Virus record (IMG/VR): IMGVR_UViG_3300017951_000149
Location: 1-22,738 of that record
From: a virus
DNA length: 22,738 nt
Strand: one strand, 5' to 3'
Position 1 is the stretch's first letter. Each line of letters starts with the position of its first letter. Of the stretch, positions 6,606 through 22,738 are shown piece after piece. A program made the translations under genes and the position numbers. The notes below the pieces were generated by a model. The model saw only the letters and a list, made by a program, of their open reading frames with translations, did no database searches and was not told the DNA's origin.

Positions 6606-6799
6606 TCATCCTTCACAAACTCTTTGCGTTTCTTATCAAACGTGAATTTAACGCTGGGGATGTCGTCGTCTGGAACACTGGGGTCGTTCCATAACTTCTC
6701 AGCACGTTTTTGCTCGAAATCAATGATCCCGTTTTCTTTTAACGTAGCACGACGTTGCTTCTCGTACTCTTGCCATTCGGTCCAACTCATACCTTTCAT
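6602..6799 (-). CDS. Hypothetical phage protein, 65 aa
   Basis: A charged helical protein starting MKGMSWTEWQEYEKQRR and ending FTFDKKRKEFVKDE. It overlaps the helicase stop by ATGA and the next start by ATGA, so it is clearly part of the coupled replication operon. I do not recognise the family. Confidence 0.7.
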   Translation of the reverse strand: MKGMSWTEWQEYEKQRRATLKENGIIDFEQKRAEKLWNDPSVPDDDIPSVKFTFDKKRKEFVKDE

Positions 6800-8310
6800 A
6801 GGTCATAACTCCTTGTTACATCTTCTGCATCTACGATATATAAATTCTGTTTTGCACGAGTGACACCAACGTAAAACACGCGGTGCATATCGTCTGGGTT
6901 AATTTGCATTTCATTGTCGGCTGCTGGGCTCAGGTCCGTGAACAGCACGACGTTTTCCGCTTCCCCACCTTTTGATCCGTGGATCGTGGACGCTGTAATG
7001 CGAGGAATGCCATTGAACTTCTCGCCGCGCCGCAACAGCGCAGTGACATAGGCCCGGTCGGTTTCCGGTAGCTTGTCCATGGCTTCGGACCAGATCATGT
7101 CCTTGGTTGCCAGCAAGCCGTGTTGAGAAACTAAATTTTCAAAAGTTATCAGGTCCGTGTCGTCTACGCCGGGTAGCTTTTTATAGCCTCTGGTAACGCG
7201 GTCCTTGATTGACATGTAGCTGTAGATAATCCGCGCTACCTTCCCAGACACTTCTTTGTCCTTGCGTAGCTGCTCCCATCCGTTGACGGCCTCGCTTACT
7301 TTCTCACTAATGGACCGTTTGCCACGGTACGTGAACAGGTATCCACCGGAGCGCAGGTCGTAATACACGGGCTGTAGTTGGTAGGCTGCCTGCGACAAAA
7401 TCAGCCAAGACCCCTGCGCCATGTCCAAAGAGTTAATAGTGTTAATACGCGTCACATTACCTTGCTCAGAGCGGGGTTCGTATTTTTTCGGAAACCGTCT
7501 CGTAATGCGACGCACCACTTTCTCTGCCACTTCATGCACTGCAAGAGGTATGCGGTAAGACTGAGACAAAGTTTCGGACCCGCCTTCCAAGTTAATAAAA
7601 TGGTCTACGTCAGCGCCAGCCCACCGATAGATAGCTTGGTCATCATCTCCCGCGCAGTACATCCGCTTTGAATGGCTGTCCAAGATATGGGCTATGTCCC
7701 ATTGTAGTGGGCTCAAGTCTTGCGCTTCGTCTAAAAAGCAAAGGTCAAAGTCTGGGCAGAACTTATCTGCGCCTTTGGCAAAGTGTTCAAGCATGTCTGT
7801 GAAGTCATAGAGACCCATGCTTTCTTTGTAGTCACGCAGGCATTTGTCTACATAGTTGACGATGTTCCAATCTTCTTCAATGTGACTTTGGTTGTACTGC
7901 TCCCGCAGATCAACCTTGCGTAGTCGCGCCAAGTTAATCAAGCCAAGCACTGGGTCGCTGCTGTTCACCATACTAGGGATGTCATCGTCGATGGACGTGT
8001 TGCGCCCACCTAGCGTGATACCAATATGGTTACTCAGTTCCTTGTAGTTCTCATCCTGCATCACCTGTTCCGGACGGATGTCGGTCATGGTGAGCGCCAG
8101 CGAATGAAGTGTTCTGAAGAAAATTAAATCTTTCTTCGGGTCCAAGTTGAACCGTGCGGCTGCCCGTTCTTTGGCTTCGTTTGCTGCTTTGCGAGTAAAG
8201 GCAAGGAATGCAATCCGCTCCGGGTGTATCCCATCTTCTAGCGCCTTATCTACCATGTTAAGCAGGGTAGTGGTTTTGCCAGTTCCGGGCGGTCCAAATA
8301 TCCTAAACAT
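6796..8310 (-). CDS. SF1 (UvrD/Rep-like) DNA helicase
   Basis: A 504-aa ATP-dependent 3'-5'-type helicase. The motifs appear in the expected order: Walker A GPPGTGKTT at about residues 6-14, motif Ia (AFTRKAANE), motif II LDEAQD at 193-198, motif III GDDDQAIYRWAGAD, motif IV (SYRIP), motif V (TIHGSKGGEAENVVL) and motif VI VFYVGVTRAKQNLY near the C-terminus. It is shorter than UvrD (about 720 aa), with a reduced 2B-like region. I chose the ATG at 8310 because Walker A follows closely and GA-rich ribosome-binding sequence precedes it. A GTG at 8349 would add 13 basic residues. It overlaps the small HTH gene by 8 nt. Confidence 0.94.
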   Translation of the reverse strand: MFRIFGPPGTGKTTTLLNMVDKALEDGIHPERIAFLAFTRKAANEAKERAAARFNLDPKKDLIFFRTLHSLALTMTDIRPEQVMQDENYKELSNHIGITLGGRNTSIDDDIPSMVNSSDPVLGLINLARLRKVDLREQYNQSHIEEDWNIVNYVDKCLRDYKESMGLYDFTDMLEHFAKGADKFCPDFDLCFLDEAQDLSPLQWDIAHILDSHSKRMYCAGDDDQAIYRWAGADVDHFINLEGGSETLSQSYRIPLAVHEVAEKVVRRITRRFPKKYEPRSEQGNVTRINTINSLDMAQGSWLILSQAAYQLQPVYYDLRSGGYLFTYRGKRSISEKVSEAVNGWEQLRKDKEVSGKVARIIYSYMSIKDRVTRGYKKLPGVDDTDLITFENLVSQHGLLATKDMIWSEAMDKLPETDRAYVTALLRRGEKFNGIPRITASTIHGSKGGEAENVVLFTDLSPAADNEMQINPDDMHRVFYVGVTRAKQNLYIVDAEDVTRSYDL

Positions 8311-8461
8311 TCTTCTTCTCTTTCTCCCGCCTATATATTTGCTGGACACGCTGTTTTGATATGTTGAAGAACTCAGCTACCGCCGTCATGGTCATTTTAT
8401 CTTGGTCGATCATGCGGACAATTTCGCGGTTCCTCATTTTGATTACTGCACTGGTGGGCAT
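8303..8461 (-). CDS. Small HTH protein, 52 aa
   Basis: The frame runs from ATG at 8461 to TAG at 8303 and is linked to the primase stop (TGATG) and the helicase start (ATGTTTAG). MTAVAEFFNISKQRVQQIYR is a clear helix-turn-helix like that of sigma-70 region 4 or small resolvase-type HTH proteins, followed by a basic tail (REKEKKN). An internal ATG (residue 9) could also be used. It is probably DNA-binding, either regulating transcription or assisting the primase and helicase encoded on either side. Confidence 0.7.
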   Translation of the reverse strand: MPTSAVIKMRNREIVRMIDQDKMTMTAVAEFFNISKQRVQQIYRREKEKKNV

Positions 8462-10002
8462 CAGAACGGGGCCTCCTGTTGTGATCCGAACGACGGTGGA
8501 TCAATTTCAAAATCTACACTGTCAAATGCTGGGATTTGCCAGACACGCACCGCCCTGCCCTTGATCTTTAGCACCACACTCTCACCGTTTATGTCGCGTA
8601 AACGCTGGGCAATCTTGTGGCTCTTGTATTCAAAAAACTTATTCTTGCGGAGAAAAGCCTCGAAGTCCTTAAGTCTGAAAAACGTAATGTTCTTCTCATC
8701 ATCAGTCCACGGTCTGCGTAATAAGATTTCCTCCTTGTCTTGCGCCTGCTGTAGGTGACGGCAGAACTCTTCGAGATAATCGTAGAACTGACCGCTGATG
8801 CTGGCGTCTTGTGCCACCTCAATGATGGCGCTTTCGTTGTCTCGCATCTCTGTTAACAACGTGCTGATCCTGCTTTCCCACTGGGCCTTGGCGACGGACC
8901 GCGGCATGAAGTTAAGCTGCTCCATGCAAGCCTTCTGGAAAGTGCCTTGGTTCATCAGGGCTTCGGTATCTAACTCTAACGGCTCACCGTTAACGTCCAT
9001 GAACCAGACCGGTGGGGTTGAGTTGTATTTGCGTAGGTTCGCGATGGTCGCCCCTGCTACGGCTGCGCCGATACCAAACTTCTTGGTAAGACAAAGCTGT
9101 TTGTTGCAGTGCGAATTGATTGGAGCGTCGTTACATTTGTAGGCGTAGTCTTTGCGCTGCACCTGCTTGGCAACTATGTTGACCTCCGACAATGGCAATG
9201 GCGGAGATAGGTACTCCATGTTGAACTTGAGTATTTCAGATTCCCAACTATCGGGGTACGCCTTCCGAAGATATACCCCCAAGTTGAATAGACCATTGTT
9301 TCTGCCTCCTTCACTGATACCAGAACTGCAAAGTATCTGTAGGCATGGCGGACCATCCGGCAGTAGGTCGGTCGGACCGCTTCCTGCTACTTGTAGCTTA
9401 ATGATTTCTTCGGGGGTTTGAACATGTTTATCGTACAGTTCAAAAAATTCTACGAGGGTTGCTGATGTACCGTCGTCAAGGAAAGCGTAACGCAAGCCGT
9501 CTTCGTGGTCGTAGTACGGCAAATTCAGAAAGTTACCTACATCGCCTCTGTCCAATTGCAGCTTAATTTGCTTGGGGAATATCTCACTCTCGCCATACCC
9601 AAGGGCCGCGGACATGTGTTGCAGAGCCTTCTGCATATCCTTCGCATCCGTCCATCCGGACGCGAACAAGAAACAGTGTGCGCCGCCCGATTTGGAGCGG
9701 CAGACTACCAGAGGTAGTTTCATGCGGCGGATTTTATCCACCAGCAATTTGTGATCTAAGGGGTATTGGTCTATGTCAATGCAACCCCATACGCATTGAT
9801 TGTCTTCATTAATCGGGATAATTCCAAGGCCATTACCTTTGCCCGATAGGTGGTTCTCCCAAAGCTTCGTGGTCCGTGGTTCGCGTGTTACGCCAGCCTT
9901 TCCCTGTGCTTTGCCGTTTGCGCCAGTCTTCTCGATTTTAAAGTAGCCATACGCTTCTTTAAGACCGTTAAAGATTGACGAAAATTTTTCAACTGCTGAC
10001 AT
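8461..10002 (-). CDS. Archaeo-eukaryotic-type primase (TOTE/PrimPol-like)
   Basis: A 513-aa protein. The N-terminal half matches the AEP primase fold: GCIDIDQY holds the catalytic D-x-D (about D76/D78), RSKSGGAHCFLF holds the S-GG-H motif (H about 109), and EIFPKQ followed by GNFLNLPYYD is typical of the TOTE/PrimPol group. A PriCT-like middle region follows (ISEGGRNNGLFNLGVYLRK). Next is a Cys cluster (YAYKCNDAPINSHCNKQLC) that probably binds metal, and then a C-terminal helical part. It probably makes primers for the family A polymerase. I chose the ATG at 10002, preceded by GGGGG. An ATG at 10014 is possible and would add 4 residues. A terminator lies directly upstream. Confidence 0.88.
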   Translation of the reverse strand: MSAVEKFSSIFNGLKEAYGYFKIEKTGANGKAQGKAGVTREPRTTKLWENHLSGKGNGLGIIPINEDNQCVWGCIDIDQYPLDHKLLVDKIRRMKLPLVVCRSKSGGAHCFLFASGWTDAKDMQKALQHMSAALGYGESEIFPKQIKLQLDRGDVGNFLNLPYYDHEDGLRYAFLDDGTSATLVEFFELYDKHVQTPEEIIKLQVAGSGPTDLLPDGPPCLQILCSSGISEGGRNNGLFNLGVYLRKAYPDSWESEILKFNMEYLSPPLPLSEVNIVAKQVQRKDYAYKCNDAPINSHCNKQLCLTKKFGIGAAVAGATIANLRKYNSTPPVWFMDVNGEPLELDTEALMNQGTFQKACMEQLNFMPRSVAKAQWESRISTLLTEMRDNESAIIEVAQDASISGQFYDYLEEFCRHLQQAQDKEEILLRRPWTDDEKNITFFRLKDFEAFLRKNKFFEYKSHKIAQRLRDINGESVVLKIKGRAVRVWQIPAFDSVDFEIDPPSFGSQQEAPF

Positions 10003-10017
10003 CGTTGCCCCCATACG

Positions 10018-10047
10018 GAAAAAACGGCAGGGCCGAAGCCCCGCCGT
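10018..10047 (-). terminator. Strong terminator with UUCG tetraloop
   Basis: A 10-bp GC-rich stem (10038-10047 with 10024-10033, including one G-T pair) is closed by a C(TTCG)G tetraloop on the minus strand and followed by six T. It sits between the putative ssDNA-binding gene and the primase gene, which it should insulate unless transcription reads through. Confidence 0.88.
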
Positions 10048-10056
10048 GATGAATAA

Positions 10057-10827
10057 TTAGAAAACGGAGGAACCGCCCTCTTCATCATCCGTATGTTTCA
10101 CAACAACCTCGCCTGCTGAGATACTATCAGCGAAGCCCTTTGCTCGTGTGTAAAGAGCTGCGTCGTCGATGGGGCCTTCACAAGACATTTCCCACCCGTG
10201 CCAAGAACCTTTGGAGTTTTCCTCCGCAATGGTCTTGAGGTGGTAGACATGTGAAAAGCGTGGCGGAGTAAACGGTCCGTTCTTGCCCATCATGCTGCGA
10301 GACGCCATCATGCTATTCCACTTACGCGACTTCTTGAGCTGCGTAGATTTCATGGCAATCAGAGCGGTCTCATGAGACCCATCCTCATTGATTAGGATGA
10401 CGAAATGCTGGTGCGTCTCTTCGATGTACTCGCCATTACCTCCAACAACATAATCTTTGTTGTCGTCGGCAGAACGTTGCGTCTCAGGACGGCCTTCACC
10501 CGGTTCGTAAATTGCCACAGGCGCACCGGTTCCGCTGCCACGCGGAGCCCATTGGATGAACCTACGCTGGTAAGCACACGGCACAACACGAATGCCGTCT
10601 TTACCTTTGTAAGCCGTCCCGGTTACGGTGTTGTAAATATCGCCCTTACGAGCCGTTTCGTTTTCGTCAAGGACAGGATCGTTTCCTGACAGAACCTTTA
10701 AGAAGGGAAGCGCGAGGTCTTCCTGTCCCAAGTTCTCCATTCCACGTCCGGCGTCCTGCTCGAACATCGTTGGATCGAATGCTACGATCTCTTTATCGCC
10801 AGCTTTGGCTACTTGCTTATTACTCAT
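10057..10827 (-). CDS. Putative phage ssDNA-binding protein
   Basis: A 256-aa protein. Recognisable blocks are ALPFLKVLSGNDPVLDENE, IRVVPCAYQRRFIQWAPRG, HFVILINEDGSHETALIAMK and STQLKKSRKWNSMM, a set I recall from an uncharacterised but widespread phage family. The C-terminus is acidic and ends in phenylalanine (KHTDDEEGGSSVF), as in T7 gp2.5 and bacterial SSB, where the tail recruits other replication proteins. Its place in the replication block fits an ssDNA-binding role, which is inference. It overlaps the upstream gene by ATGA and is followed by a strong terminator, suggesting that more of it is made than of the downstream enzymes. Confidence 0.72.
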   Translation of the reverse strand: MSNKQVAKAGDKEIVAFDPTMFEQDAGRGMENLGQEDLALPFLKVLSGNDPVLDENETARKGDIYNTVTGTAYKGKDGIRVVPCAYQRRFIQWAPRGSGTGAPVAIYEPGEGRPETQRSADDNKDYVVGGNGEYIEETHQHFVILINEDGSHETALIAMKSTQLKKSRKWNSMMASRSMMGKNGPFTPPRFSHVYHLKTIAEENSKGSWHGWEMSCEGPIDDAALYTRAKGFADSISAGEVVVKHTDDEEGGSSVF

Positions 10828-11405
10828 TTCTTACCTCTCTTGATAACTGCGCGTTGACCAACCCATGCTCCGAAAAGCTCCATAGGAAACTCATCCCCGT
10901 TTTCTACACGCTCTTTGACAAAAGCCCGTAGTGTCTGCGGATGTATTTCTGTTTTTTGCTCTGGAACATACCCCTGCTTCTGCGCAAAAGCAGCAAAGGC
11001 GCTTGCTAGATCGTCTTCTCCACGGCCAAACTGGCAGGCGACAGTATTCTTGATAATGTCGTCGTACCCATGGTCGCGTAGCCATTCATAGGCTTGTGGA
11101 CGATTGTCTACGAGGATTGAGGCACCATACGTTTGCTTGATGTCAACGGTAGAACCGTCGTCTAAGGCAAACGATGACAACCCAATTTCTGCCAGCATTG
11201 CGGGCATCTCTTCATCCGTTAACTTTATAAGCGCCTTCTTCTCCTCCTTGAGTTCAGCCTCAAGAGATTCGATCCGCACTTCTTTGTCTCGGATTGTTCG
11301 GGCCAACGCAGCCACCGAAGTTAGGCCTTGCTGGTCGATTTTGTCGATGGACGTTGCGAGATTTTGTTCAAAATCCTGCTCCATCAAGTCGGTTAGGTCA
11401 CTCAT
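10824..11405 (-). CDS. Phage replication-region coiled-coil protein, 193 aa
   Basis: First gene of the replication block. Residues about 35-65 form a coiled coil (RDKEVRIESLEAELKEEKKAL). A conserved globular part follows (LSSFALDDGSTVDIKQTYGA, then EWLRDHGYDDIIKN). The C-terminal half includes HPQTLRAFVKERVENGDEFP, a pattern I recall from podovirus-type phages without a known function. The protein ends very basic (VIKRGKK). A Shine-Dalgarno (AGGAGAAAC) precedes the ATG. It is expressed from the minus-strand promoter at 11458-11485, and its coupling to the ssDNA-binding-like gene suggests a shared role. Confidence 0.78.
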   Translation of the reverse strand: MSDLTDLMEQDFEQNLATSIDKIDQQGLTSVAALARTIRDKEVRIESLEAELKEEKKALIKLTDEEMPAMLAEIGLSSFALDDGSTVDIKQTYGASILVDNRPQAYEWLRDHGYDDIIKNTVACQFGRGEDDLASAFAAFAQKQGYVPEQKTEIHPQTLRAFVKERVENGDEFPMELFGAWVGQRAVIKRGKK

Positions 11406-11444
11406 CGTGTTTCTCCTGTCGTGGTTAAAGGCACCTTTTGGGCC

Positions 11445-11474
11445 TTGACAATTACAGATAATATCTTATATCAT
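11445..11474 (+). promoter_or_regulatory. Plus-strand promoter for the SNF2 helicase
   Basis: The -35 is a consensus TTGACA (11445-11450), the spacer 18 nt and the -10 TATCAT (11469-11474). The layout equals that of the promoter before the AlpA-like gene. The -10 lies in ATATCTTATATCAT, an 11/14 match to the shared element. Confidence 0.68.
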
Positions 11475-11485
11475 AATCTTGTCAA
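11458..11485 (-). promoter_or_regulatory. Minus-strand promoter for the replication block
   Basis: On the minus strand the -35 is TTGACA (11480-11485), the spacer 16 nt and the -10 TATTAT (11458-11463). Its elements interlock with those of the plus-strand promoter, so the two probably cannot be occupied at once. Confidence 0.62.
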
Positions 11486-11511
11486 GCGGTTTTTAAAAAA
11501 AGAGGAACACG

Positions 11512-12957
11512 GTGGACTACGAATACAAAACACAGCCTTACGATCACCAAAGACGCGCCTTTGAAGGCTCGTGGTCCGCGGAGTTTTTTGCGCTCTTCAT
11601 GGAGATGGGCACAGGTAAGACCAAGGTAGCTATCGACACCATGGCTGCGCTGTATGAAGCGGGCAAGATAAAAGCCGCGCTCGTTGTTGCACCGAAAGGT
11701 GTGTATGACAACTGGGTAAAAGGCGAAATACCGATTCACCTTCCGGACAGAATACCACGCCAAGTGGTCCGCTGGACCCCTTCTAAGACGCAAAAGTTTG
11801 AAAACGAGCTGAAAGATTTCATCGTAGACCGCACCCCCATGCTGAAGATATTTGTCATCAACGTGGAAGCGTTTTCGACACCACGTGGTGCAGAGGCCGC
11901 AGAAGCGTTTTGTTATCAAAATGCAGAAAACATTGTGATAATTGACGAATCGACTACAATAAAAAATAGGAAAGCTGCGAGAACCAAGAACATCATTGCT
12001 CTTCAGCGCAGGGCTAAATATCGCCGGATATTGACCGGATCACCTATAACAAAGAGCCCTATGGACCTGTTTAGTCAATGCGGTTTTCTTGCGGAAAAGG
12101 CGTTAGGTTTTAATAGTTACTTTGCATTTCAGGCACGATACGCCAACGTCCAGAAACGCACGATGGGACATCGCAGCTTCCAGCAGATTACAGGCTACCG
12201 CCGGTTGGACGAACTCTCTGAAAAGTTAGATAGGTTCAGCAGCCGGGTACTGAAGGAAGAGTGCCTTGATCTGCCTGTCAAAGTTTACGTGCGCCGCGAG
12301 ATAGAACTCACCCCAGAACAAGAACGCTTGTACAAGCAGATGAAAAAGCTTGCGCTGGCAAAATTAGAATCTGGGGAGTTAGCGACGACGGCCAGTGTAT
12401 TGACGCAAATCATGCGTCTTCAACAAATTTGCTGCGGGCATTTGCAGCCAGACGATGGTGAAATACAGCTCATCAAAAACGACAGGCTCAACGAGCTGTT
12501 GGATTTGTCTGAAGAGTTACAGGGAAAGGCTATTATTTGGGCGACGTATACACACGACATCCAACAAATAGCTTATGCCCTGCGCGACCGTTTCGGGCCC
12601 GATTCGGTCGCAACCTATTATGGTGCTACACCCCAAGATGAGCGTCAGGAGATCGTTAATCGGTTTCAAGACCGTAACGATCCCCTGCGCTTCTTCATCG
12701 GGCAGCCTAAAACAGGCGGGTACGGCATCACTTTAACAGCCGCAAACACGGTAATTTACTACAGCAACAGTTACGACTTAGAAATCCGGCTGCAATCAGA
12801 GGACAGGGCGCACCGAATTGGTCAGACCAACAAGGTTACATATATTGACTTGGTGTCTCCTAACACGATTGACGAGCGGATATTAGAGGCCCTGCGTAAC
12901 AAAATTGACATTGCAGGCAAAGTGCTGGGCGAAGACGCTAAAGACTGGCTTACCTAG
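11512..12957 (+). CDS. SNF2-type SF2 helicase
   Basis: A 481-aa ATPase. It has a Q-motif-like YDHQ, Walker A MEMGTGKTKVAI (GTGKT at 33-37), motif Ia (LVVAPKGVYDNW), Walker B IIDEST (DEST at 145-148), motif III LTGSPI, then helicase C motifs GYGITLTAANTVIYY and QSEDRAHRIGQTNKV. The last is the SNF2-family motif VI with its arginine finger. At 481 aa it is close to the minimal helicase core. It begins at a GTG with AGAGGAA upstream. It is the only plus-strand gene in the window. Phage SNF2 proteins are thought to assist recombination, repair or replication-fork work. Confidence 0.93.
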   Translation: MDYEYKTQPYDHQRRAFEGSWSAEFFALFMEMGTGKTKVAIDTMAALYEAGKIKAALVVAPKGVYDNWVKGEIPIHLPDRIPRQVVRWTPSKTQKFENELKDFIVDRTPMLKIFVINVEAFSTPRGAEAAEAFCYQNAENIVIIDESTTIKNRKAARTKNIIALQRRAKYRRILTGSPITKSPMDLFSQCGFLAEKALGFNSYFAFQARYANVQKRTMGHRSFQQITGYRRLDELSEKLDRFSSRVLKEECLDLPVKVYVRREIELTPEQERLYKQMKKLALAKLESGELATTASVLTQIMRLQQICCGHLQPDDGEIQLIKNDRLNELLDLSEELQGKAIIWATYTHDIQQIAYALRDRFGPDSVATYYGATPQDERQEIVNRFQDRNDPLRFFIGQPKTGGYGITLTAANTVIYYSNSYDLEIRLQSEDRAHRIGQTNKVTYIDLVSPNTIDERILEALRNKIDIAGKVLGEDAKDWLT

Positions 12958-13384: not shown

Positions 13385-14176
13385 TCAATACGTTGTTGCC
13401 TGCGGTATAGCTGGGCCTCCTACAATCCCCCGATCCATTGGCGTTTGTTGTTCAAATTGGGCCTGTGGCTGCGGCATATATTGCTGCATCATAGGTCCGC
13501 CCCCAAAGCCGTAGCTTTGTTCTGCGCCGAAATGAGCGCGTTCTGCTTGGTCAACCAAGTCTAAGAAATGATCTACCTTTTGCTGCTGCTGTTGCATTTC
13601 TGGTTGCGCGTAGGTTTGCATTAGATAGTTCTGATATACCCTGAGTGGCGACGATTGCATCATGCCAAACTGCTGGTGGATTTGCTCGAACAAGCCTCCT
13701 ACCCCTTGTTGAGGTTGAGGGCCCGCGGGCATCGGCATGGGGTCCGATTTGATCGGCTCCCTGCGCACCGGCATTGTCCCATACATTACTTTTTCGTTTA
13801 AATCATTAGACATCGGGTCCGCATACGGCGAAGTAATAGAACCACCTTCCTGCATATACTGTACTGGATACACGGCACCACCTCCTGCGTATGCTCTACC
13901 TGCTAATCCGGCTATCCCACCGCTAGTCATGCCACCACGACCAGCTAAACTTGCAATAGCGTCTGTCCCACCTTCTTGAAGACCTGCATAACCCCCTCCC
14001 ATAGCAGATTGCACCGCCATGTTTTCTGCGCGGGCTCGACGCTTTGCTTTTGCCGTCGTTGCGGCGTGGTACGCGTCATATTCTGCTTGGTCCTTGGCCC
14101 AATCAGCGTTGTTGAGCTTCGCAAGCTCTGCGCTGGTGTAGTAGGGGCTGCCGGTAAATTCAGAAATAATAGGCAT
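13385..14176 (-). CDS. Virion-associated protein, 263 aa (inferred)
   Basis: The N-terminal part (MPIISEFTGSPYYTSAEL) is followed by a charged helix. A Gly-rich low-complexity region (about 57-112) contains VQYMQEGG, a motif shared with the 880-aa protein. The remainder is rich in Met, Gln and Pro (MQQQQQ, MMQQYMPQPQ). It starts at an ATG overlapping the stop of the 1340-aa gene by 1 nt, so the two are coupled. Composition and position suggest a structural or minor virion protein. No enzymatic motif is visible. Confidence 0.68.
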   Translation of the reverse strand: MPIISEFTGSPYYTSAELAKLNNADWAKDQAEYDAYHAATTAKAKRRARAENMAVQSAMGGGYAGLQEGGTDAIASLAGRGGMTSGGIAGLAGRAYAGGGAVYPVQYMQEGGSITSPYADPMSNDLNEKVMYGTMPVRREPIKSDPMPMPAGPQPQQGVGGLFEQIHQQFGMMQSSPLRVYQNYLMQTYAQPEMQQQQQKVDHFLDLVDQAERAHFGAEQSYGFGGGPMMQQYMPQPQAQFEQQTPMDRGIVGGPAIPQATTY

Positions 14177-17100
14177 TACGACGCTCCACTCAAGCTCATA
14201 ATACCGACCAAATCACGGTCTTCTGTGAATAAAGCTGCGTACCTAGTCCGATCTACAGGACCTGAACTCTGTATGGGTGCAACCTGTGGGGCTGCGGCAG
14301 TATTAATCGGACTAGGCGCAGGTCCAACGTTATTCGGTGTGGGAGACGGAATAACATTTGGATTAAGTGAACCTTGTTGGTTTGACGGCGGTACGTTCTG
14401 TGGTGGAGGAGGCGTTTGCTCTTCTTCACTCACAGAATCTCGAATGTAATCACCGAATTGGTCAATCATTTCCGAACCTAACCTTTCTGTCGGTCCGGCG
14501 GTCCGGCGAATGCTGCTCATCAATCCGTTATCAACTAGGCCTTGGACCAGTCGAGTCATGATTCTCGTTCCTTCTGGCGAAAGATGAGAAGCACCTTGCG
14601 TTCTGGTATCGTGAACTTTCTTGAGGGCAGTTGCGAGTAACTGCGGATCGTTGATTAATGTTTCAATAACGTCCATCCGCAAGCTGGCAGGAAGTTCTGA
14701 TAAATATTTATTTACAATCGTCTGAGCATACTGCGAACCAGCTTGTCGTGCGATCAAGCTTTGGTTGCTGCCACTCATTACAGATTGGACACCAGCACCC
14801 ATCTCTGAACCAGAAATTCTTGTAACAAGAGCGAATAGAGGACCTACTTGTTGAATATAACCTTCGGTATCTCCAGCCCGGCCACGTGCCGCAAATGCTT
14901 GTATTTCAGCCATACGTCTGAGCAATTGTCGTGTGCGGCCAATCTCCTCTGACGACATAATTCCCTTTTCTTGCATCCATTCGGATAAGCGAATGTTAGC
15001 AGAAGAGTTAGGATGAGCCTCAAACAACGTATTGAAAGCGCCACCAACATTGAAGATAGGTCCGTTTTCACCTTGACGGTTAAAAACAGACTCCATGATG
15101 GCCGTTCGGAAGCCGTTCACCAAATCTTCTCTGCTATACGTTTTGCCTCTGTTCGGTCCTTGTGTAACGGTAAACCCGCCTTCACCAACATTTTCAATGA
15201 ATTCCCACAGCCTGTTTAATTCATTGAACGGACGGGGGTTATCCAAAGACAACGCAAGGGATACTTGTGTGGTTGGATTTTGCGTTTTGTCCGGCAGCAG
15301 TTCGTAAAGAGACAGCTCACCGTCCCTACGACTGGCAGCTAATTCAGTTGTTTCTCTTTTAGTGTCTTCCAAAAGATGTCGAGCTATAGGTATGTTTTCT
15401 AAATCAGCTCGCAGCGCAGGCATGGATTCCAACAACCGTTGGTTCTGGTCTTTACGCATCCAAGTTTCAAGGGCGCTGGTGTTTAAAGTGCCGTCCGGGT
15501 TCAAAACTTCAGAACGCAAGCTTCTCAACAAATTTTCAGAAGCGCCACGGATAGTAGCGTTATCGTTGTACATGTCGGTCAATTGAGTGCGCAAACCGGG
15601 TATGGCATCAATTGCATTTTCGTTTGCGGTAAACCAGCTATTGAAAGCTCGTCTATCTAGCATCTGAGTACGCGGATCAATGACTCCCGCTTCTTGGGCG
15701 CTTGTCAACAAGGCTTGACCTGCTTCGCGGGCGTCTCCTTGCAACATATTGGTTAGAGACGTACCAAACTGTGTTTGAGAAATCAGGTCTAGTTGCTGCG
15801 CACGGAGATAACCGGCGTCGCCTCTAAATAAACGGTCTCTAAGCACCTCAACAGGAATGCGCGGTGCGCCGTCTCGACTGGTTCCCAAAACATCGCCTGC
15901 AAAACTTCTTGTAAACACGTCATTGTAGGCGCGTGAAAAAGCTCTTGCATTGTCATATTCTGCGCTGACTGATCCAGCAGGGATAGACTCCAAGTCTTTT
16001 AAAATCGCGTCTGCAAATTCATAAGCCACACGCGCTTGATTACTACGCCCATCTGCTGCCAAGGCGCGACCGGCGTCCAAAGCTACACTACGCATATCAA
16101 TCAAAGATCGTATTGAAATACCGCCACTAGGGGCAGGCGTCCCGTCCATCGCTGTTTGTTGTGCTTGGGCAGTAATCATGTTGGCCCGCGCATTTAGCGC
16201 CGCCACATAATCTCGCTGACGTTGATCTAGTCTCGCACCGCCTGCGGTCATGCCATCCGCTTCTCGACGTAAGGCTGCAATCTGTTCAGCTTCTGGCAAA
16301 CCTTCCGTTCGCTTAACAATATCATCAAAAGTAATACCGAAAGGTGTGCCTTCGAGCTTGTTTCGAGCGGTGTTAAAAGCTCCTACTTCTCTAAGTTGAC
16401 GCGGTGCAGGTGTATTTGGATTTATTCCTAGGTCTGTGGACACTCTATTTACATACGCGTCCATCTCACGAAGATCAGCGTTTCGCAGCAAAACGTTTCT
16501 TGCGTTTTCGTCTAAATCGGTTAAGTCGCGCCACGCGGTTATGAAATTCGGCGTATTCGACTCAGTAAAACCACCTTGTCCATCTGGTACATTGAACGTC
16601 GTAAGTTCCACGTCGCGTGGAACGCGTCGCCAAAGGGTTCTTTCCTGACCCCTTAAACGTTGTTGCAGGTTAGAAATAACTTCATACAGACGCCTAGCTT
16701 CTTCAAGGTTATCAACACTTTCTCCACCAGCTTCCCCTACGCGGCTCATTGCCGACCTAAGTCGTTGAGTTGCTTGGTCCAGTTGTTGTGTAATATCGGC
16801 GTCCCAAAGACCGGTGTACAGCTCAGACATTTGTCCAAGGGCTTGCCGGTCTCCTTTTGCGTAAGTAAATAAAATAAGCCTACGCAAAGCTTCTGTTGCT
16901 TGTTCGGTTTTGTTTTGTCCAGTCGCAGAAACCCCGGTGTCTCCCCCGCGATCCATAATCATGCGTAGGAGTGTAGGGCTTGAGGTTAAAGTTGCGGAAT
17001 CTAACTGAATCAGATTGCCGTCTGCATCTCTTAACTGATCTTGAAACTCAGGTGTTAAAAGCAGCTCAATAACTTTTTCTGGGTCTTCTTTATTAGCCCT

Positions 17101-18198
17101 TAATTGATCGTAAATCCAAGTTCCGCCCTCAATTTGTTGGGCTTCTGTTAGCCCTCCCGTCGCGTTGACGGCGCTATCGGCTTTAGTGCGATCAAAAAGT
17201 TGTAAAGCTTTTTCCCAAGCCATACCAGTTAGTTGCGGTATTCTTTTGGCTGCTAGGTCACCAATTAACCCTCCGGAAACGGCCCCGGCTGTTTCAAAAC
17301 CAAACCTTACCCAAGGGTCGTCTGGAGCTAGTTTTTCTGCCCCGCCTGCGGCAAATGCACCCCCGGCAACAGCCAATCCTTCCGCCGTCAAAGTTCGGCC
17401 TACCTGATCCCGTGCTGCGGAGCCTGTCCGTTCTAAACTGTTTTCAACTTGGCGTATAAAACGTGTAGAAAGGGGAACTTTTGCCCCGGCTTCTATGTTG
17501 TCTAATACAAGTCGAGAACCAAGATTGACCTTTCCTGAAATTAAGAAAGGCATTGGTAAAAAGGCTAGTCCGCCTGCGGTAGCTTTACCGGCTTCGTAAG
17601 CAGCGCGTGTGCCGGGTACATATAATTCTTCTTCGCCAAATAAAGCGTCTTGCGCAACCCTAGTGGCGTAGTCTCCAAACATGGACGCGCCAAGGCCTGT
17701 GAGTATCGGAACACCAATACGAACTGCGGCTGTCCAAGGTGTTACAGGAGGAACCCCCGCAACTAACGTATTTCCATACAACATCCCTGCGTAAAAACCA
17801 CCGGCACCTACCGCTGCGGGAGCAACCTCTCGTTTTGCGCCGCTAATGAAATCATCCCAGAAATCGGTGCCTGCTGAGATAGGCCGTCCCTGAGTGTCAC
17901 GTCCAAAAAGCTCAATAATTTGCTCGTCGGTTACGCTCTTCCCCGGTTCTATACCCAAATCACGCAGAATACCCGCATTGCCCATACGCAAAGCGTTGTA
18001 GTTAAGGTAGTTATCACCTCTGTTTTGGAGCCGTGGGTCGCGGCCCAAGGTATTTGCCATCATTTCGGCCAGTTGTGGAACAACCGGCCCGGATGATCTG
18101 AGAACTTCTGTTATTTCCGAAAACTCATCTGCACCAAACGTTGCACGTGGAATAAAGAGACCTTCGGCATTTGTAGGAGTAGTGTTATTGTCCGCCAT
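14176..18198 (-). CDS. Large virion protein, possible internal/ejection protein, 1340 aa
   Basis: The largest gene in the window. The N-terminal 125 residues are soluble. At about 125-175, 205-222, 271-290 and 299-317 there are Ala/Gly-rich hydrophobic stretches that could insert in membranes. The rest is mostly helical and highly charged, with many short repeated-looking helical blocks, and the C-terminus is Pro/Asn/Gln-rich. This composition, size and position beside other virion genes resemble phage internal virion (ejection) proteins such as T7 gp16, but no lysozyme motif is seen and the call is inference. It starts 9 nt after the stop codon of the 880-aa gene. Confidence 0.7.
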   Translation of the reverse strand: MADNNTTPTNAEGLFIPRATFGADEFSEITEVLRSSGPVVPQLAEMMANTLGRDPRLQNRGDNYLNYNALRMGNAGILRDLGIEPGKSVTDEQIIELFGRDTQGRPISAGTDFWDDFISGAKREVAPAAVGAGGFYAGMLYGNTLVAGVPPVTPWTAAVRIGVPILTGLGASMFGDYATRVAQDALFGEEELYVPGTRAAYEAGKATAGGLAFLPMPFLISGKVNLGSRLVLDNIEAGAKVPLSTRFIRQVENSLERTGSAARDQVGRTLTAEGLAVAGGAFAAGGAEKLAPDDPWVRFGFETAGAVSGGLIGDLAAKRIPQLTGMAWEKALQLFDRTKADSAVNATGGLTEAQQIEGGTWIYDQLRANKEDPEKVIELLLTPEFQDQLRDADGNLIQLDSATLTSSPTLLRMIMDRGGDTGVSATGQNKTEQATEALRRLILFTYAKGDRQALGQMSELYTGLWDADITQQLDQATQRLRSAMSRVGEAGGESVDNLEEARRLYEVISNLQQRLRGQERTLWRRVPRDVELTTFNVPDGQGGFTESNTPNFITAWRDLTDLDENARNVLLRNADLREMDAYVNRVSTDLGINPNTPAPRQLREVGAFNTARNKLEGTPFGITFDDIVKRTEGLPEAEQIAALRREADGMTAGGARLDQRQRDYVAALNARANMITAQAQQTAMDGTPAPSGGISIRSLIDMRSVALDAGRALAADGRSNQARVAYEFADAILKDLESIPAGSVSAEYDNARAFSRAYNDVFTRSFAGDVLGTSRDGAPRIPVEVLRDRLFRGDAGYLRAQQLDLISQTQFGTSLTNMLQGDAREAGQALLTSAQEAGVIDPRTQMLDRRAFNSWFTANENAIDAIPGLRTQLTDMYNDNATIRGASENLLRSLRSEVLNPDGTLNTSALETWMRKDQNQRLLESMPALRADLENIPIARHLLEDTKRETTELAASRRDGELSLYELLPDKTQNPTTQVSLALSLDNPRPFNELNRLWEFIENVGEGGFTVTQGPNRGKTYSREDLVNGFRTAIMESVFNRQGENGPIFNVGGAFNTLFEAHPNSSANIRLSEWMQEKGIMSSEEIGRTRQLLRRMAEIQAFAARGRAGDTEGYIQQVGPLFALVTRISGSEMGAGVQSVMSGSNQSLIARQAGSQYAQTIVNKYLSELPASLRMDVIETLINDPQLLATALKKVHDTRTQGASHLSPEGTRIMTRLVQGLVDNGLMSSIRRTAGPTERLGSEMIDQFGDYIRDSVSEEEQTPPPPQNVPPSNQQGSLNPNVIPSPTPNNVGPAPSPINTAAAPQVAPIQSSGPVDRTRYAALFTEDRDLVGIMSLSGAS

Positions 18199-18207
18199 TG
18201 CTACCTC

Positions 18208-20850
18208 TTAATTTCCAGCTCCAGTTACCGCCTGATTCATCAAGTCTTGGGCTCTTTGAATATTACCTTGGTTGGCAGTATTAGATAGAGTCAAGATTGG
18301 GCCAAGCAGTTTTTCAAGTCGGTCAATTTCAAACAGTTTCTGGCTGAGAGTGCTGGCTTGATCTGACGGCAGAGGCGTACCACTCGCTTGCAGGCTAAGA
18401 ATACGGGCTTTTTCAGACCGTAGTTCTTCAGCAAGTCTTGAAAGTTTACGCGCTTCCGAAACAGGGTTGCGGAAGAAGGCTCTTTCGTCTGGGAACAACT
18501 GAGCTGTTGTTTCCAAATCGGCCACCGCAAACCTTGGCGATGCGGACAAGGCAGATCGACCAAACACACGAACCATTTCGATGTATTGACGCGAATCTTG
18601 GTTGTCGGCAAACATTTCGCCAAAGTATTCTGGGCTGATAACACCACCAAGAACACCGTCCAAGCCTGAGTACACTTTAGACCAGAAACCTGTACCTTCT
18701 CGTGCTTCTCGAAGTGCGTCGCGCACTCGTCGCTGCGTTTGGCTTGTAAGAGGATTGCCTTGCATGTCCGTCATGCCGGAAACAAGGTCATTGTCCATCT
18801 GGTTAAGTTGTTCCGCCGCGTTGGCCGAGATACGAGCATTACGCATAACCTCGTAAGCGGTCGTACTAGACACTTCAAACGCGTTGCTAGGCATCGTGTA
18901 CTGTGTGCCATTCGGCATCGTAACTGTTCTACCGTCATAAGAGGTGTAAACACCAGACTGAACATCATTGTCTGGATCAGCCGGAACATAAAAGCCACGA
19001 GGCGTAACGCTTTCCGTACCAATTTTCTGAAGAGTGAAATTAGGTGTATTGGAAGCTGTTTCAATAGCATTTTGACCTTCCGTGGAATTGACATCCACAA
19101 GCTGACGAGTGCTAACGCCGTCTGCGTTGGTGGTTGTGATAACCATGTAATCAGGTTCGAGTATTTTGTCTGTGTCGTAAATGCTGACAGGCACTGCATT
19201 TGGATCGTTTTTGTCAATCCGTAGAATGTCTATTTTTCCGCCAGTATCAACGGTGCGGAACTCATACTCAGGCGCAACACCAAGAAGGCGATTACGCGTA
19301 GAAAGCTCCAATTGATCCCAATTGTCTTTGGTCATGCCAAATTTAGTGAAGTAATCGCGGTCGGTAAGGACCGGCAATCCTTGCAAAAATTGACGATCAG
19401 ATGCAGGTAACGCATCAAACTGCGCCTTGGTCATGCGGAACTTATCCCAATAATCTCTATCGTTGATTGGGGCTTCGTATTCTCTGTAAGCATCTGCACC
19501 ATACGTTTGTGCAATGGCGTTAAGTTCGGCTTGCGAGAAATTAGGAGAAGAACCCGCAGGATAATTACGATTACCTATAGTGATGTCCATGTTCAACGTC
19601 ACTTGGTCTCGTTTCATTATCATGTCTGGGCTATAGGCGTTTTGACGCATAGCACCTTGTTCGACTAGGGCGACGTAACGCGCTGTGCCGGGAATAGCTG
19701 CAATAGAACTACCGTCGCGCAAAATAAAGTTTTCTGCGCTCTGTGGTGAACCAGAAGGTTTGGCTATAGGCGTAATAACAATATTGCCTTTACCGAACTC
19801 TGCTTCCAAAGATTGTAAATCACCACGGTTCAAGGGCCGCGATCCGTAGTCCTTCAGAATTTCGTTGCCGTCCTCGTCAGTTTCGCGGATTTGAATGCGA
19901 TAAGAGTCTCCGAGGTCTTTACCGGCAGCCGTTAGTTCTGCTTGACGTTCGGCGGCATACAAGCTGCCGGAACTCTGCAATGCCGCTAAATCAAGGGCTC
20001 TGTTTTCCTTGGCTTGTGCGTCTTTATATTTTTGGAACTCACCCGCACGGGCTCCAATGTTCCCAAGCGGCTGCACAAAAGAGGCCGCAAGCTGTTCCGC
20101 TGGCGTAGCGCCGGGTTTACCCGCCCCTGACGCGAACAAAAGACCACCCTGCGCAATATCAAAAAGCATTTGCGCTTGAGTCATGTCTTTCTGTTCTTGT
20201 AATTGATTGGCTTGTTGCGCAGGATCAATTAACTGTCTGTAAAGCTCTCTTTGTTCATCAAATAATGCCTGCTGACGTGACGGGGGCCCACCCGCAGCCA
20301 TGTATTGAACCGGACCCCCTTGGTTAAAATTTACGGGATTGGGAGCCTCCGCTGCACCCATGTCTACGGTTGACATAATCCCTTCGGCCATCGCACCTTC
20401 TACCGGTGCGGCCATTTGATCTTGTGCTAGACCACCAATACCTTGGTCTACCGCGGCCATCAGCATTACAGGCTGAACAAGTGCAAGCACTGATTCCGGG
20501 GTGGCCTGTGAATCTTCCGGGCCCACTATCTGTGCCAATTCCTGATAGCGAGCCTCAATCGGTAGATCGTCACCTCGAATACCGTTTATTACGGTTTCGT
20601 AGTCTTCGGCATTATCCAAATCCTGCATTTGCGAAGCATATTGACCTAACATGCTTTCTATTGCTTGAGGATCAATACCACTCTGCATCGCATATTGTGC
20701 AGCTTGTGGTAAATCAACGCTGTTCGGATCAACAGGCATTGACGGAATGGTAGGAGAGGCAGAAGGCATCATAGGTGCCATCCCCCCTTCCTGCATTCTG
20801 ACAACGCCGCCATTACGGAACATTTGTCGGTCCATCACACTTCTATTCAT
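18208..20850 (-). CDS. Large virion-associated protein, 880 aa
   Basis: It starts MNRSVMDRQMFRNGGVVRMQ at an ATG overlapping the repeat-protein stop by 1 nt. Residues about 11-23 and 175-188 carry the GG-x-V-x-x-M-x-x-GG motif also found in the 263-aa protein. Residues about 200-300 are helical, with a coiled-coil-like Gln-rich stretch. A 33-residue segment starting DRDYWDKFRMTKAQFDAL is repeated directly by DRDYFTKFGMTKDNWDQL (DNA 19264-19461). The C-terminal 200 residues are helical and charged. I recall similar N-termini in uncultured marine phages. It is probably a structural protein; its function is unknown. Confidence 0.7.
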   Translation of the reverse strand: MNRSVMDRQMFRNGGVVRMQEGGMAPMMPSASPTIPSMPVDPNSVDLPQAAQYAMQSGIDPQAIESMLGQYASQMQDLDNAEDYETVINGIRGDDLPIEARYQELAQIVGPEDSQATPESVLALVQPVMLMAAVDQGIGGLAQDQMAAPVEGAMAEGIMSTVDMGAAEAPNPVNFNQGGPVQYMAAGGPPSRQQALFDEQRELYRQLIDPAQQANQLQEQKDMTQAQMLFDIAQGGLLFASGAGKPGATPAEQLAASFVQPLGNIGARAGEFQKYKDAQAKENRALDLAALQSSGSLYAAERQAELTAAGKDLGDSYRIQIRETDEDGNEILKDYGSRPLNRGDLQSLEAEFGKGNIVITPIAKPSGSPQSAENFILRDGSSIAAIPGTARYVALVEQGAMRQNAYSPDMIMKRDQVTLNMDITIGNRNYPAGSSPNFSQAELNAIAQTYGADAYREYEAPINDRDYWDKFRMTKAQFDALPASDRQFLQGLPVLTDRDYFTKFGMTKDNWDQLELSTRNRLLGVAPEYEFRTVDTGGKIDILRIDKNDPNAVPVSIYDTDKILEPDYMVITTTNADGVSTRQLVDVNSTEGQNAIETASNTPNFTLQKIGTESVTPRGFYVPADPDNDVQSGVYTSYDGRTVTMPNGTQYTMPSNAFEVSSTTAYEVMRNARISANAAEQLNQMDNDLVSGMTDMQGNPLTSQTQRRVRDALREAREGTGFWSKVYSGLDGVLGGVISPEYFGEMFADNQDSRQYIEMVRVFGRSALSASPRFAVADLETTAQLFPDERAFFRNPVSEARKLSRLAEELRSEKARILSLQASGTPLPSDQASTLSQKLFEIDRLEKLLGPILTLSNTANQGNIQRAQDLMNQAVTGAGN
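19264..19461 (-). repeat. Tandem 33-residue duplication inside the 880-aa protein
   Basis: Two adjacent 99-bp in-frame units encode DRDY[W/F]xKFxMTKxxxDxL... and end RxxLxG or similar. They diverge in most third positions, so the duplication is old. Confidence 0.75.
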
Positions 20851-22738
20851 TAAAATAACCCCGCTTTGCTTGCGCCAGCCGCTGCGGAGAGGCCAGCTAT
20901 ACCCAAGCCAAGGATGGATTGGGCCGGAGATACATTACCTCCGGAAGTTTGGGATATTGCCATTTGGCTAGTAGGCGCACCCTTGTAAATATCGGATAGG
21001 AAGCCGACACGCTGATATGGCTCGTAAAGCTGTGCCATTTCGCTTTGACGTTGTGCTTCCAATACCGCCTGATCTTGTGCTTGGAACTGTTTGCCCATGT
21101 CGAACAAGAATCCAGCGTCTTTCTGGTTGAGCTGTTGTGACAGTTCTCCAAGAGCGCCTTGGCGGAGTGCGAGCTGACTGAGAGCATCGCCTTGTTGTAG
21201 ATTGAGTTGTCCGTACTGCGTACCGAGGTTGCCAATCCCTTCGCCCAAGCGTCCCATCATTTCGGAACCTTGCAACCCTAGCTGTCCGCCAGCTTGAGCG
21301 CCCGATACCGCAAGATTTGCTTGATTCTGTCCAAGCGTTCCAGCCTGCCCTGCCAACTGACCGGCTAATTGCTCCGCGCTGATGCCCAATTGAGCCGCAC
21401 GTTGTGCAATATCTGCTTCTTGGTTAACACCCTGTAGGCCCATTTGACCCAAGTTAGTATTAAGTTGCCCAGCAAGTTGTGCTGCGCTCAAGCCAGTTTG
21501 TGAAGCAAGCTGCTGCAAATTCATGCCCGTCTGAGACAGCGCCTGCGCATTAGCAGACGCAAGTTGCTCAGTAGACAGACCCATTGTGCCTGCCTGTTGA
21601 GCGGCTTGAAGACCTAGCTGACCCCCAATTTGTGCGCCTTGCTGCCCCATCTGAGCAGCCTGCATACCAAGTTGAGCGCCTTGGGCCGCGGATTGCATTC
21701 CGCTTTGCGTAATAAGTTGTTCGGCGGACATGCCAGTTTGTGCTTGCTGGTTGAGGAGTTGTCCAGCAAGCTGTTCTGCTGACATGCCCAGTTGTGCAGC
21801 CTGACCGGCCAATTGACCTTCAAGCTGCGAGGCACTGATGCCTAATTGTCCCGCGAGTTGGTTGGCGGCAATACCTGTCTGGGCTTGCTGTTGCGCGGTT
21901 TGCGCTGCCAATTGCTCTGCGGAAAGCCCTAACTGACCAGCTTGCTGACCGGTTTGAGCCAATAATTGATTTGCGGAAAGACCTGTTTGCGCTTGTTGCT
22001 GTAGGAGCTGACCGGCAAGCTGTTCGGTAGAAATACCCATCTGAGCCGCTTGTTGTGCAAGCTGGCCCTGAAGTTGCGCAGCCGACATACCAAGCTGACC
22101 GGCAAGCTGTTCTGCCGATTGACCCAGTTGTCCTGCCTGAGAAAGGTTTGATGCGGCGAGCTGTTCTGCGGACAACGCTTGTTGTCCAGCGCCCAACGAT
22201 CCAGCCTGCGCTAATTGCTCTGCACTGAGACGTTGCTGACCAGCCTGCAATAGACCGGCTTGAGCCAACTGTTCGGCACTCATGCCCAACTGGCCCGCTT
22301 GTGCCGCGTTTTGTGCAGCTAACTGCTCTGCCGACAAGCCCATTTGACGTGCTTGTGCTGCGTTTTGTGCAGCAATTTGTTCGGCAGAAAGCGCCTGTTG
22401 TCCCGCTTGACCGTAAGCTGAAAGACCAAGCTGGCCGCCTTGTAACAAGCCTGCTTGAGCCAATTGCTCTGCGGACATACCTGTCTGAGCCGCCAATTGT
22501 TCGGCGGATAGACCAAGTTGTCCTTGCTGTTGCGCGGTCCGTGCAGCTAATTCCTCCGCCGACATGCCGAATTGTGCGGCTAGTTGTTCGGCGGAAAGAC
22601 CTGTTTGAGCAGCTAACTGTACCGCGGACATGCCAAGCTGACCTAACTGGCCAGCTTGAGCTGCCGCCAATTGCTCTGCGGACAGACCGAGTTGGCCCGC
22701 CGCTTGAGCTGCTTGAAGTCCTGCTTGCGAGCCTTGCG
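20850..22738 (-). CDS. Gln/Ala-rich tandem-repeat virion protein, N-terminus outside window
   Basis: The frame is open to the right edge (at least 629 codons), so an ATG must lie outside; the TTG at 22670 is internal to the repeat. Residues in about 20900-22738 are built from units beginning [L/M/I]S-A-E-Q-L-A, spaced either 11 or 18 residues apart, with A, Q, G and L as the main residues. The C-terminal 130 residues are non-repetitive: a coiled region, then LYEPYQRVGFLSDIYKGAP and a hydrophobic tail SILGLGIAGLSAAAGASKAG. The repeats suggest a long alpha-helical fibre or stalk in the virion. The C-terminal segment resembles one I remember from marine phage structural proteins. Confidence 0.8.
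   Translation of the reverse strand, partial: QGSQAGLQAAQAAGQLGLSAEQLAAAQAGQLGQLGMSAVQLAAQTGLSAEQLAAQFGMSAEELAARTAQQQGQLGLSAEQLAAQTGMSAEQLAQAGLLQGGQLGLSAYGQAGQQALSAEQIAAQNAAQARQMGLSAEQLAAQNAAQAGQLGMSAEQLAQAGLLQAGQQRLSAEQLAQAGSLGAGQQALSAEQLAASNLSQAGQLGQSAEQLAGQLGMSAAQLQGQLAQQAAQMGISTEQLAGQLLQQQAQTGLSANQLLAQTGQQAGQLGLSAEQLAAQTAQQQAQTGIAANQLAGQLGISASQLEGQLAGQAAQLGMSAEQLAGQLLNQQAQTGMSAEQLITQSGMQSAAQGAQLGMQAAQMGQQGAQIGGQLGLQAAQQAGTMGLSTEQLASANAQALSQTGMNLQQLASQTGLSAAQLAGQLNTNLGQMGLQGVNQEADIAQRAAQLGISAEQLAGQLAGQAGTLGQNQANLAVSGAQAGGQLGLQGSEMMGRLGEGIGNLGTQYGQLNLQQGDALSQLALRQGALGELSQQLNQKDAGFLFDMGKQFQAQDQAVLEAQRQSEMAQLYEPYQRVGFLSDIYKGAPTSQMAISQTSGGNVSPAQSILGLGIAGLSAAAGASKAGLF
21320..22720 (-). repeat. 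Coding tandem repeats, 33- and 54-bp units
   Basis: Degenerate in-frame repeats of the SAEQLA motif recur at 33- or 54-bp steps (11 or 18 codons). On the plus strand they show as recurring ttgctctgcggaca-like strings. Units differ by synonymous and conservative changes, so the array is not a recent expansion, although recombination within it would change protein length. Confidence 0.85.

Follow-up and report, generated by a model that had tools for sequence, protein, structure and literature searches.

What kind of protein is built from short repeats of two sizes, and what might its length serve? The question is raised by a gene at one end of the window analysed here, the entire 22,738-base IMG/VR record IMGVR_UViG_3300017951_000149. 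The reading frame lies on the minus strand (22736..20850), is open at the contig end and encodes 628 amino acids (aa), with SAEQLA units spaced mostly 11 or 18 residues apart. Open reading frame (ORF) calling and comparison with contig IMGVR_UViG_3300025889_000220 (locus L002; 99.2% identical to the window across 8.8 kb) showed that it holds the final 628 residues, and the stop, of a protein of about 1346, the 5′ half of the gene having been lost at the contig end. The complete gene (L002:2032-6072) encodes 1346 aa, and the window protein corresponds to residues 719-1346. As judged from sequence comparisons, the repeats form one arm of what is very probably an antiparallel helical hairpin. The overall explanation that we consider best, and probable, is a podovirus ejection protein of this shape whose arm length would set the length of a tube.

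Two arms of matched length

Searching with the C-terminal 129 aa gave 35 viral loci, and profile queries gave a larger sample (two viral searches with 80 loci each, that is, at least 80 per search). Hidden Markov model (HMM) anchors were found in 202 ORFs (all three in 160, two in 30 and one in 12), and 125 distinct sequences were used; L012 and L015 escaped the core model and were left out for that reason, even though simple motifs give arms of 518/545 residues. The aligned members have in common an N-terminal region ending near GIGGYQPYL, then a tip region (MNPYxxAV...GAFGGSR), and a C-terminal region (LGLRQAALGE ... PYQRLGFLSDIYKGAPTSQM ... GLGIAGLSAAAGASKAGLF), and they vary most in the length between these conserved regions. 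Some more distant members (e.g., L006 and L007) have other ends, and the shortest members among the matches listed (~270 aa) are without the SAEQLA array.

Sequence statistics give the protein a layout of N-domain, N-arm, tip domain, C-arm and C-domain, and in L002, with boundaries set from the HMM anchors, the N-arm occupies residues 67-618, the tip domain 619-681, the C-arm 682-1236 and the C-domain 1237-1346. The SAEQLA array is confined to the C-terminal arm, and an equally long, Ala/Gly-rich N-terminal arm precedes the conserved tip domain. On the minus strand of the window, a motif scan places the array of 11- and 18-residue units, from first to last strict motif, at 21363..22685, within the C-arm portion (21183..22736; L002 residues 719-1236) as delimited by arm lengths, insertions and deletions (indels) and the charge ladder described below. 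Homolog alignment places the conserved C-terminal domain (LALRQGALGE ... EPYQRVGFLSDIYKGAPTSQM ... GLGIAGLSAAAGASKAGLF) at 20853..21182. The N-arm, the putative antiparallel-register partner of the C-arm, falls outside the window.

The two arms change length together. N-arm and C-arm lengths of the 125 homologs, which range over 14-552 and 13-555 residues, respectively, were related with a slope of 1.009 (r = 0.997, Spearman’s rho = 0.991), and they differed by 3 residues or fewer in 78 homologs and by 9 or fewer in 109. Simple motifs, all of which were present in 31 of 41 sequences (25 distinct), gave a slope of 1.016 and r = 0.9999. This range agrees with the sequence-only reading of the window, which had supposed that the length can change. 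As a control for kinship, we formed 56 disjoint nearest pairs; both arms kept their length in 25 of them, and 29 showed a change of at least 7 residues. Among the changed sister pairs, r was 0.994 and 20 of the 29 agreed within 4 residues, against a mean of 2.3 and a maximum of 9 in 10,000 permutations; one arm was altered alone in none of them, and we found no clear one-arm intermediate among them. A change in length takes either two matched events or a single unusual one. Growth of the arms with genome size was rejected: in 14 picked contigs over 50 kb, longer contigs did not carry longer arms (Spearman’s rho = −0.50, p = 0.07). In a group that counts among the larger departures (L108, L145, L154 and L162), the C-arm is longer than the N-arm by 11, 14, 27 and 22 residues, respectively, possibly through an extra element or a different pitch.

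The positions of the changes correspond as well when both arms are read outward from the tip. In 12 pairs, chosen by hand and overlapping, 20 of 25 N-arm blocks had a C-arm block of equal size near the mirror position (median offset, 14.3 residues), and a parallel-arrangement control accounted for 5 of 25. L010 and L009 differ by 18 residues in each arm, L004 and L003 by 115 and 116 residues, and L013 and L002 by blocks of 40, 72 and 32 (N-arm) versus 40, 72 and 29 (C-arm) in identical order from the tip; for L012 and L003, taken from nine hand-chosen, overlapping pairs, the blocks are 29, 18, 119 and 18 in both arms. Sequence statistics show the two arms to run antiparallel and in register. 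A self-contained fibre freely lengthened by recombination, as had been proposed for the array, is not borne out: the array is one arm of a putative hairpin, and its changes are matched in the other arm.

A charge ladder gives the register at the level of residues. In 28 long homologs, N-arm Arg/Lys at tip distance d faced C-arm Glu/Asp at d+15 92 times (z = 26.8, a value that counts related sequences repeatedly), with side peaks at 44, 33, −14 and −3 that correspond to the 18 and 29 periodicities. Taking one representative from each of 17 clusters, z was 9.9 at offset 15, and L002 supplied 14 of the 25 coincidences. Within L002 itself, one fixed mirror offset sets 14 of the 18 N-arm Arg/Lys against C-arm Glu/Asp, the next best offset giving 8, and none of 20,000 shuffles of the spacing order reached 14; thus, the irregular 11/18 order is copied in mirror image by the N-arm Arg residues. 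The offset of the ladder (15) agrees with that derived from indels (14.3). It is because of the equal arms, the mirror-placed indels of the same size and the single fixed-offset ladder that we hold an antiparallel helical hairpin to be very probable. The hairpin is a trait of the family, and the salt-bridge code is a trait of the SAEQLA clade. The hairpin may be intramolecular or belong to a domain-swapped dimer, as the sequence would look alike for both.

Proposed helical steps of the SAEQLA array

The strict motif [LMI]SAEQLA occurs 12 times, and a looser SAEQLA-like pattern devised for this analysis matches 25 times in the full-length protein, one match lying before the window start. By the looser pattern, the spacings are 29, 18, 11, 11, 18, 11, 29, 18, 18, 18, 18, 18, 11, 18, 18, 18, 18, 11, 18, 18, 51, 18, 11 and 36; 20 of the 24 are 11 or 18, and two more are 11+18. 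The 11/18 spacing noticed in the sequence-only reading is therefore real, but it belongs to a minus-strand gene cut by the contig end, and the order given there (11, 11, 18, 11, 18, then a run of 18s) was correct overall but missed a leading 18 and one degenerate unit. Autocorrelation of identical residues over the first 480 residues, which needs no motif, peaked at lags 18 (z = 15.7), 29 (13.5), 36 (11.1), 47 (10.8) and 11 (10.5), far above residue shuffles, and this excludes a chance origin of the spacing. The N-terminal half (residues 91-650), whose composition (Ala, Gly, Gln, Thr) is quite unlike that of the array, also peaked at lags 18 and 36 (z = 5.2 and 4.8), giving the first hint of a partner for the array.

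At the DNA level, seven identical SAEQLAA peptides in L002 differ on average at 4.8 of 21 bases, and Tandem Repeats Finder reports a single short array of 2.7 copies; on both grounds, a recent microsatellite-like DNA expansion was rejected. The window and L002 differ by 12 synonymous codons and 1 non-synonymous codon among 629, and the gene is under purifying selection. The sole non-synonymous difference (22620-22622, minus strand; residue 757 of L002) is a Glu-to-Val change in one SAEQLA unit, and the Glu at this position of L002 is without an Arg/Lys partner at the ladder offset.

Related phages without the 11/18 periodicity, named in the sequence-only reading as a refutation, were found, and they speak against the motif as the essence of the protein. 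The motif is limited to part of the family: fewer than two copies of S[AT]EQ[LI] are present in 42 of 54 homologs with arms of at least 60 residues. The architecture, in contrast, is kept, as these homologs follow the same arm rules as the SAEQLA members.

In both arms of nine SAEQLA-clade proteins and 42 other members, hydrophobicity has its strongest periodicity at ~3.6 residues per turn, which points to a nearly straight helix rather than a heptad coil of 3.5 and sustains the straight helical stripe that had been deduced from the spacing. C-arm lengths of up to 100 residues sit on whole turns (period 3.58, R 0.84-0.85, p = 0.0002, the test floor). Likewise, 9 of 10 picked indel sizes, mostly C-arm blocks, deviate from whole turns by no more than 0.12, and some N-arm partner indels fit less well (e.g., 63 residues, or 17.5 turns). 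For the C-arm, 28 units from nine proteins give an approximate 18-residue consensus of L-S-A-E-Q-L-A-A-(R/Q)-T-A-Q-Q-Q-G-Q-L-G, in which one face is rich in Gln and the Glu sits within an Ala/Gly face. This arrangement suggests that the arms pack closely through the Ala/Gly face; close Ala/Gly packing of helices is known as an “Alacoil”.

AlphaFold2 modelled L004 (664 aa) as nearly all long helices with no strand, in line with the helical character first proposed, at a mean predicted local distance difference test (pLDDT) of only 60.7 and a predicted template modelling score (pTM) of 0.27; values for L027 were 52.0 and 0.27. The models agree with helical arms without proving them. The rise of a helix is about 1.5 Å per residue, so that 552 residues would measure ~83 nm if fully helical. 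A solved homolog was rejected: by sequence, the L002 protein had one non-significant match among solved structures (E = 0.081), and none was found at E 1 for the phiM5 homolog introduced below or for family alignment A4. Fold searches added only viral proteins: PDB gave 8 matches at E ≤ 10 and none at E ≤ 0.001, and BFVD gave 3 at E ≤ 0.001, one labelled uncultured Caudovirales phage.

Probable role in the virion and rival explanations

Homologs point to a role in DNA delivery. At E ≤ 0.01, PHROG 4287, “DNA ejection protein”, matched 8 of the 12 homologs that were scanned whole, namely L017, L038, L042, L006, L007, L036, HTVC023P and phiM5 (6.5e-91), and did not match L002, L022, L032 or L035 at that threshold. 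When L002 was divided into pieces, phrog_4287 was the best, though weak, match for both the tip (E = 0.018, profile positions 126-240) and the C-terminal piece (E = 0.0017, positions 199-314), and the N-terminal piece had none. The homolog of Sinorhizobium phage phiM5 (gene 27; phiM5_27, L206) carries the annotation “detected in phage particle proteome”, and the genes after it encode three putative internal virion proteins. A relative (WJZ48114.1) in DSL-LC04 is annotated together with Pam1-like adaptor, stabilization and cement proteins, and another is gp81 of Pelagibacter phage HTVC023P, which is of the Podoviridae type according to an excerpt of PMC9599517.

Two large ORFs come next in 10 of 12 loci, the first of 645-1146 aa and the second of 1068-1519 aa; the exceptions are L015, where they are in pieces, and L027, which has an extra ORF between. 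In the window, they are a gene of 880 aa (18208..20850, minus strand), which overlaps the stop of the hairpin gene and is gp15-like by position and size only, and a gene of 1340 aa (14176..18198, minus strand), gp16-like on the same two grounds only. Both proteins have distant relatives in DSL-LC04, that of the 1340-aa protein being annotated “DNA transfer protein”. Upstream in L002, a 609-aa protein carries a LysM domain (Pfam) and shows weaker matches to transglycosylases, endolysins and tape-measure proteins. P22- and T7-type portal models matched none of 17 records, and the T7-type model also matched no control, so this result is uninformative.

Taken with the neighbouring genes, these matches make an ejection or internal virion protein the probable identity, which is a better description than the fibre or internal scaffold first suggested. 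We propose that each monomer, or swapped pair of monomers, would form a hairpin of long, straight alpha-helical arms packed against each other by the Ala/Gly face, aided in the SAEQLA clade by the Arg-Glu ladder. Units of 11 and 18 residues (3 and 5 helical turns, differing by a two-turn heptad) would lengthen an arm without rotating its faces. The protein would be carried in the virion with the 880- and 1340-aa proteins, would leave via the tail after adsorption, and several hairpins side by side would then form, or brace, a helical tube taking the genome across the envelope, with the Gln-rich face lining the lumen or meeting solvent and arm length setting tube length at about 2 to 83 nm. We infer the steps from hairpin to tube and the oligomeric state. 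That the hairpins form a DNA-conducting tube is a tentative proposal, prompted by PHROG 4287, the neighbours and the precedents of N4 gp51, DEV gp72 and phiX174 H. A length-tunable delivery tube built from copies of this one protein, adjusted across the phage family from ~2 to ~83 nm by paired whole-turn insertions and with an Arg-Glu code in its longest clade that would hold hundreds of residues in register, is a more doubtful extension. The longest such tube would reach beyond envelope and head, and would have to be threaded out and assembled outside, or cross a thick host surface layer.

Several observations weigh against this account. The arms differ by more than 9 residues in 16 of the 125 homologs (including proteins with extra N-terminal-region sequence, such as L011, L125 and L060), and N-arm lengths are quantised weakly at best (p = 0.009 to 0.10). 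The ladder is absent from 15 cluster representatives without the array, where the best z was reached by 674 of 1000 shuffles. AlphaFold2 confidence is low for both L004 and L027. No PHROG profile matched the full L002 protein at E 0.01 or the part in the window at E 0.001. The DSL-LC04 gene upstream of the relative is annotated “tail tape measure protein”. Pfam finds Peptidase_S74 at the C-terminus of L006, L007 and phiM5_27. Finally, an 83-nm rod is longer than a small podovirus head or the usual envelope.

The last two points bear on an alternative that is possible, though we consider it unlikely: an external fibre in place of an ejection protein, in which the same hairpin forms the shaft of a trimeric tail fibre or spike and arm length gives the reach of the fibre. 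The S74 chaperone of endosialidase is usual on trimeric fibres and spikes, and its presence hints at trimers in the L006, L007 and phiM5 lineages. The S74 end also fits the second label of phiM5_27, “putative tailspike protein”; related genes are annotated “tail fiber domain-containing protein” or “chaperone of endosialidase”, and an 83-nm rod is easier to fit outside a head than inside. Conversely, the ejection label of PHROG 4287 and the internal virion proteins beside phiM5_27 speak for the interior, Pfam found no Peptidase_S74 in the full-length L002 protein or the other short members scanned, and the protein is mostly an Ala/Gly/Gln helix in which no adhesin domain was found.

Other readings question the hairpin itself. 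A solenoid made up of short helices, with a break at every G-[LM]-S, would suit the resemblance of Gly-Leu-Ser to a helix stop followed by an N-cap, and Pfam HTH_26 and HTH_19 do match the array. No single stretch passes the threshold by itself, however, for which reason a helix-turn-helix domain was rejected; moreover, the 3.6-residue phase runs on across units, C-arm lengths step by whole turns, and equal arms with mirror indels would be left without a reason, so that we regard the solenoid as very improbable. Still less credible is a single long helix or coiled-coil fibre, or a head scaffold, lengthened by recombination without a hairpin: the helical prediction, the 3.6-residue stripe and the large variation in length would suit it, but the arms change together, at mirror positions and with a charge ladder in mirror register. 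A largely disordered, low-complexity Ala/Gln/Gly spacer, despite the low complexity and modest AlphaFold2 confidence, is equally hard to credit given the ratio of synonymous to non-synonymous changes, the register-keeping indels and the ladder.

Known systems and neighbouring genes

The nearest known relatives of the putative hairpin protein are the members of PHROG 4287 (best, phiM5 gene 27; also HTVC023P gp81 and DSL-LC04 WJZ48114.1), which share homologous tip and C-terminal regions. Arms read by hand are also equal in them, at 16/16 residues in HTVC023P and, from weak anchors, about 73/73 in phiM5. They differ in arms of about 16-73 rather than 552/555 residues and in having no SAEQLA array, and phiM5 adds S74. 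Among Schitoviridae, excerpts of two reports (PMC12633501, PMC10925440) place N4 gp51, seen as a helical hairpin, next to the portal; DEV gp72 forms a dodecameric ring inside the virion and, once ejected, a nonameric tube. These all-helical ejection proteins (644 and 521 aa) have no detectable sequence relation to the present family, and the excerpts mention no repeat arms.

Gene order and the sizes of the second and third proteins are like those of the T7 gp14/gp15/gp16 operon, in which gp14-like proteins have 181-240 aa and 4-5 predicted membrane helices, according to an excerpt of PMC8954989. Members of the hairpin family, in contrast, have about 270 to 1346 aa, and none of the five hairpin proteins checked has a membrane-like segment (Kyte-Doolittle ≥ 1.6); a T7 gp14-like membrane protein was therefore rejected. 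The phiX174 H protein, as excerpted from PMC7354561, has Gln-rich hendecad and heptad helices and forms a decameric tube that conducts the genome, but it contributes one helix per subunit with no hairpin and belongs to an unrelated single-stranded DNA phage.

Two cellular systems offer further parallels. According to an excerpt of PMC5907407, the cytoplasmic hairpin of chemoreceptors (MCP) is antiparallel, with a conserved tip and symmetric insertions and deletions; it differs in its seven-residue steps and in being a cellular receptor without homology, and no Pfam chemoreceptor domain matched the window or L002 protein. Periplasmic adaptor proteins of the MacA/AcrA type, whose helical hairpins hexamerise into a nanotube (excerpt of PMC8277102), provide a model for a hairpin-built conduit, but they serve cellular export and no homology was found.

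Symmetric hairpin indels (chemoreceptors) and a helical-hairpin ejection protein (N4) are already known. The open-licence PubMed Central (PMC) full texts searched yielded no account of a phage ejection protein growing symmetrically, of the 11/18 steps or of the ladder, and within those papers the length range, the steps and the phage setting look new. To our knowledge, what determines the length of the transient DNA channel of podoviruses is not settled, and the family offers a way to ask what determines the length of a phage DNA-delivery device. Arm length varies ~40-fold while the tip, N- and C-terminal regions stay recognisable, which provides a natural length series for experiment. In addition, the family clearly exemplifies insertions and deletions that are paired between two distant parts of one gene, and its residue-level register allows hairpin pairing to be read where AlphaFold2 is unsure.

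Some minor observations concern the surrounding genes. In L015 (L015:8390-15070), four ORFs (315, 635, 310 and 953 aa) replace the two large genes, owing to frameshifts that are either real or from assembly. Upstream genes in L027 (L027:155-3044) occur in related pairs, two ORFs matching phrog_7759 and two phrog_2295. Similar Gly/Met-rich stretches (VVRMQEGG, YMQEGG and YMAAGG) occur in the neighbouring virion-module genes at 18208-20850 and 13385-14176 (minus strand). Positions 4454-12957 of the window form a replication module: the minus strand encodes DNA polymerase A, an AEP-type primase and proteins resembling Pam3 gp33 and gp34, and the plus strand encodes an SNF2-type helicase.

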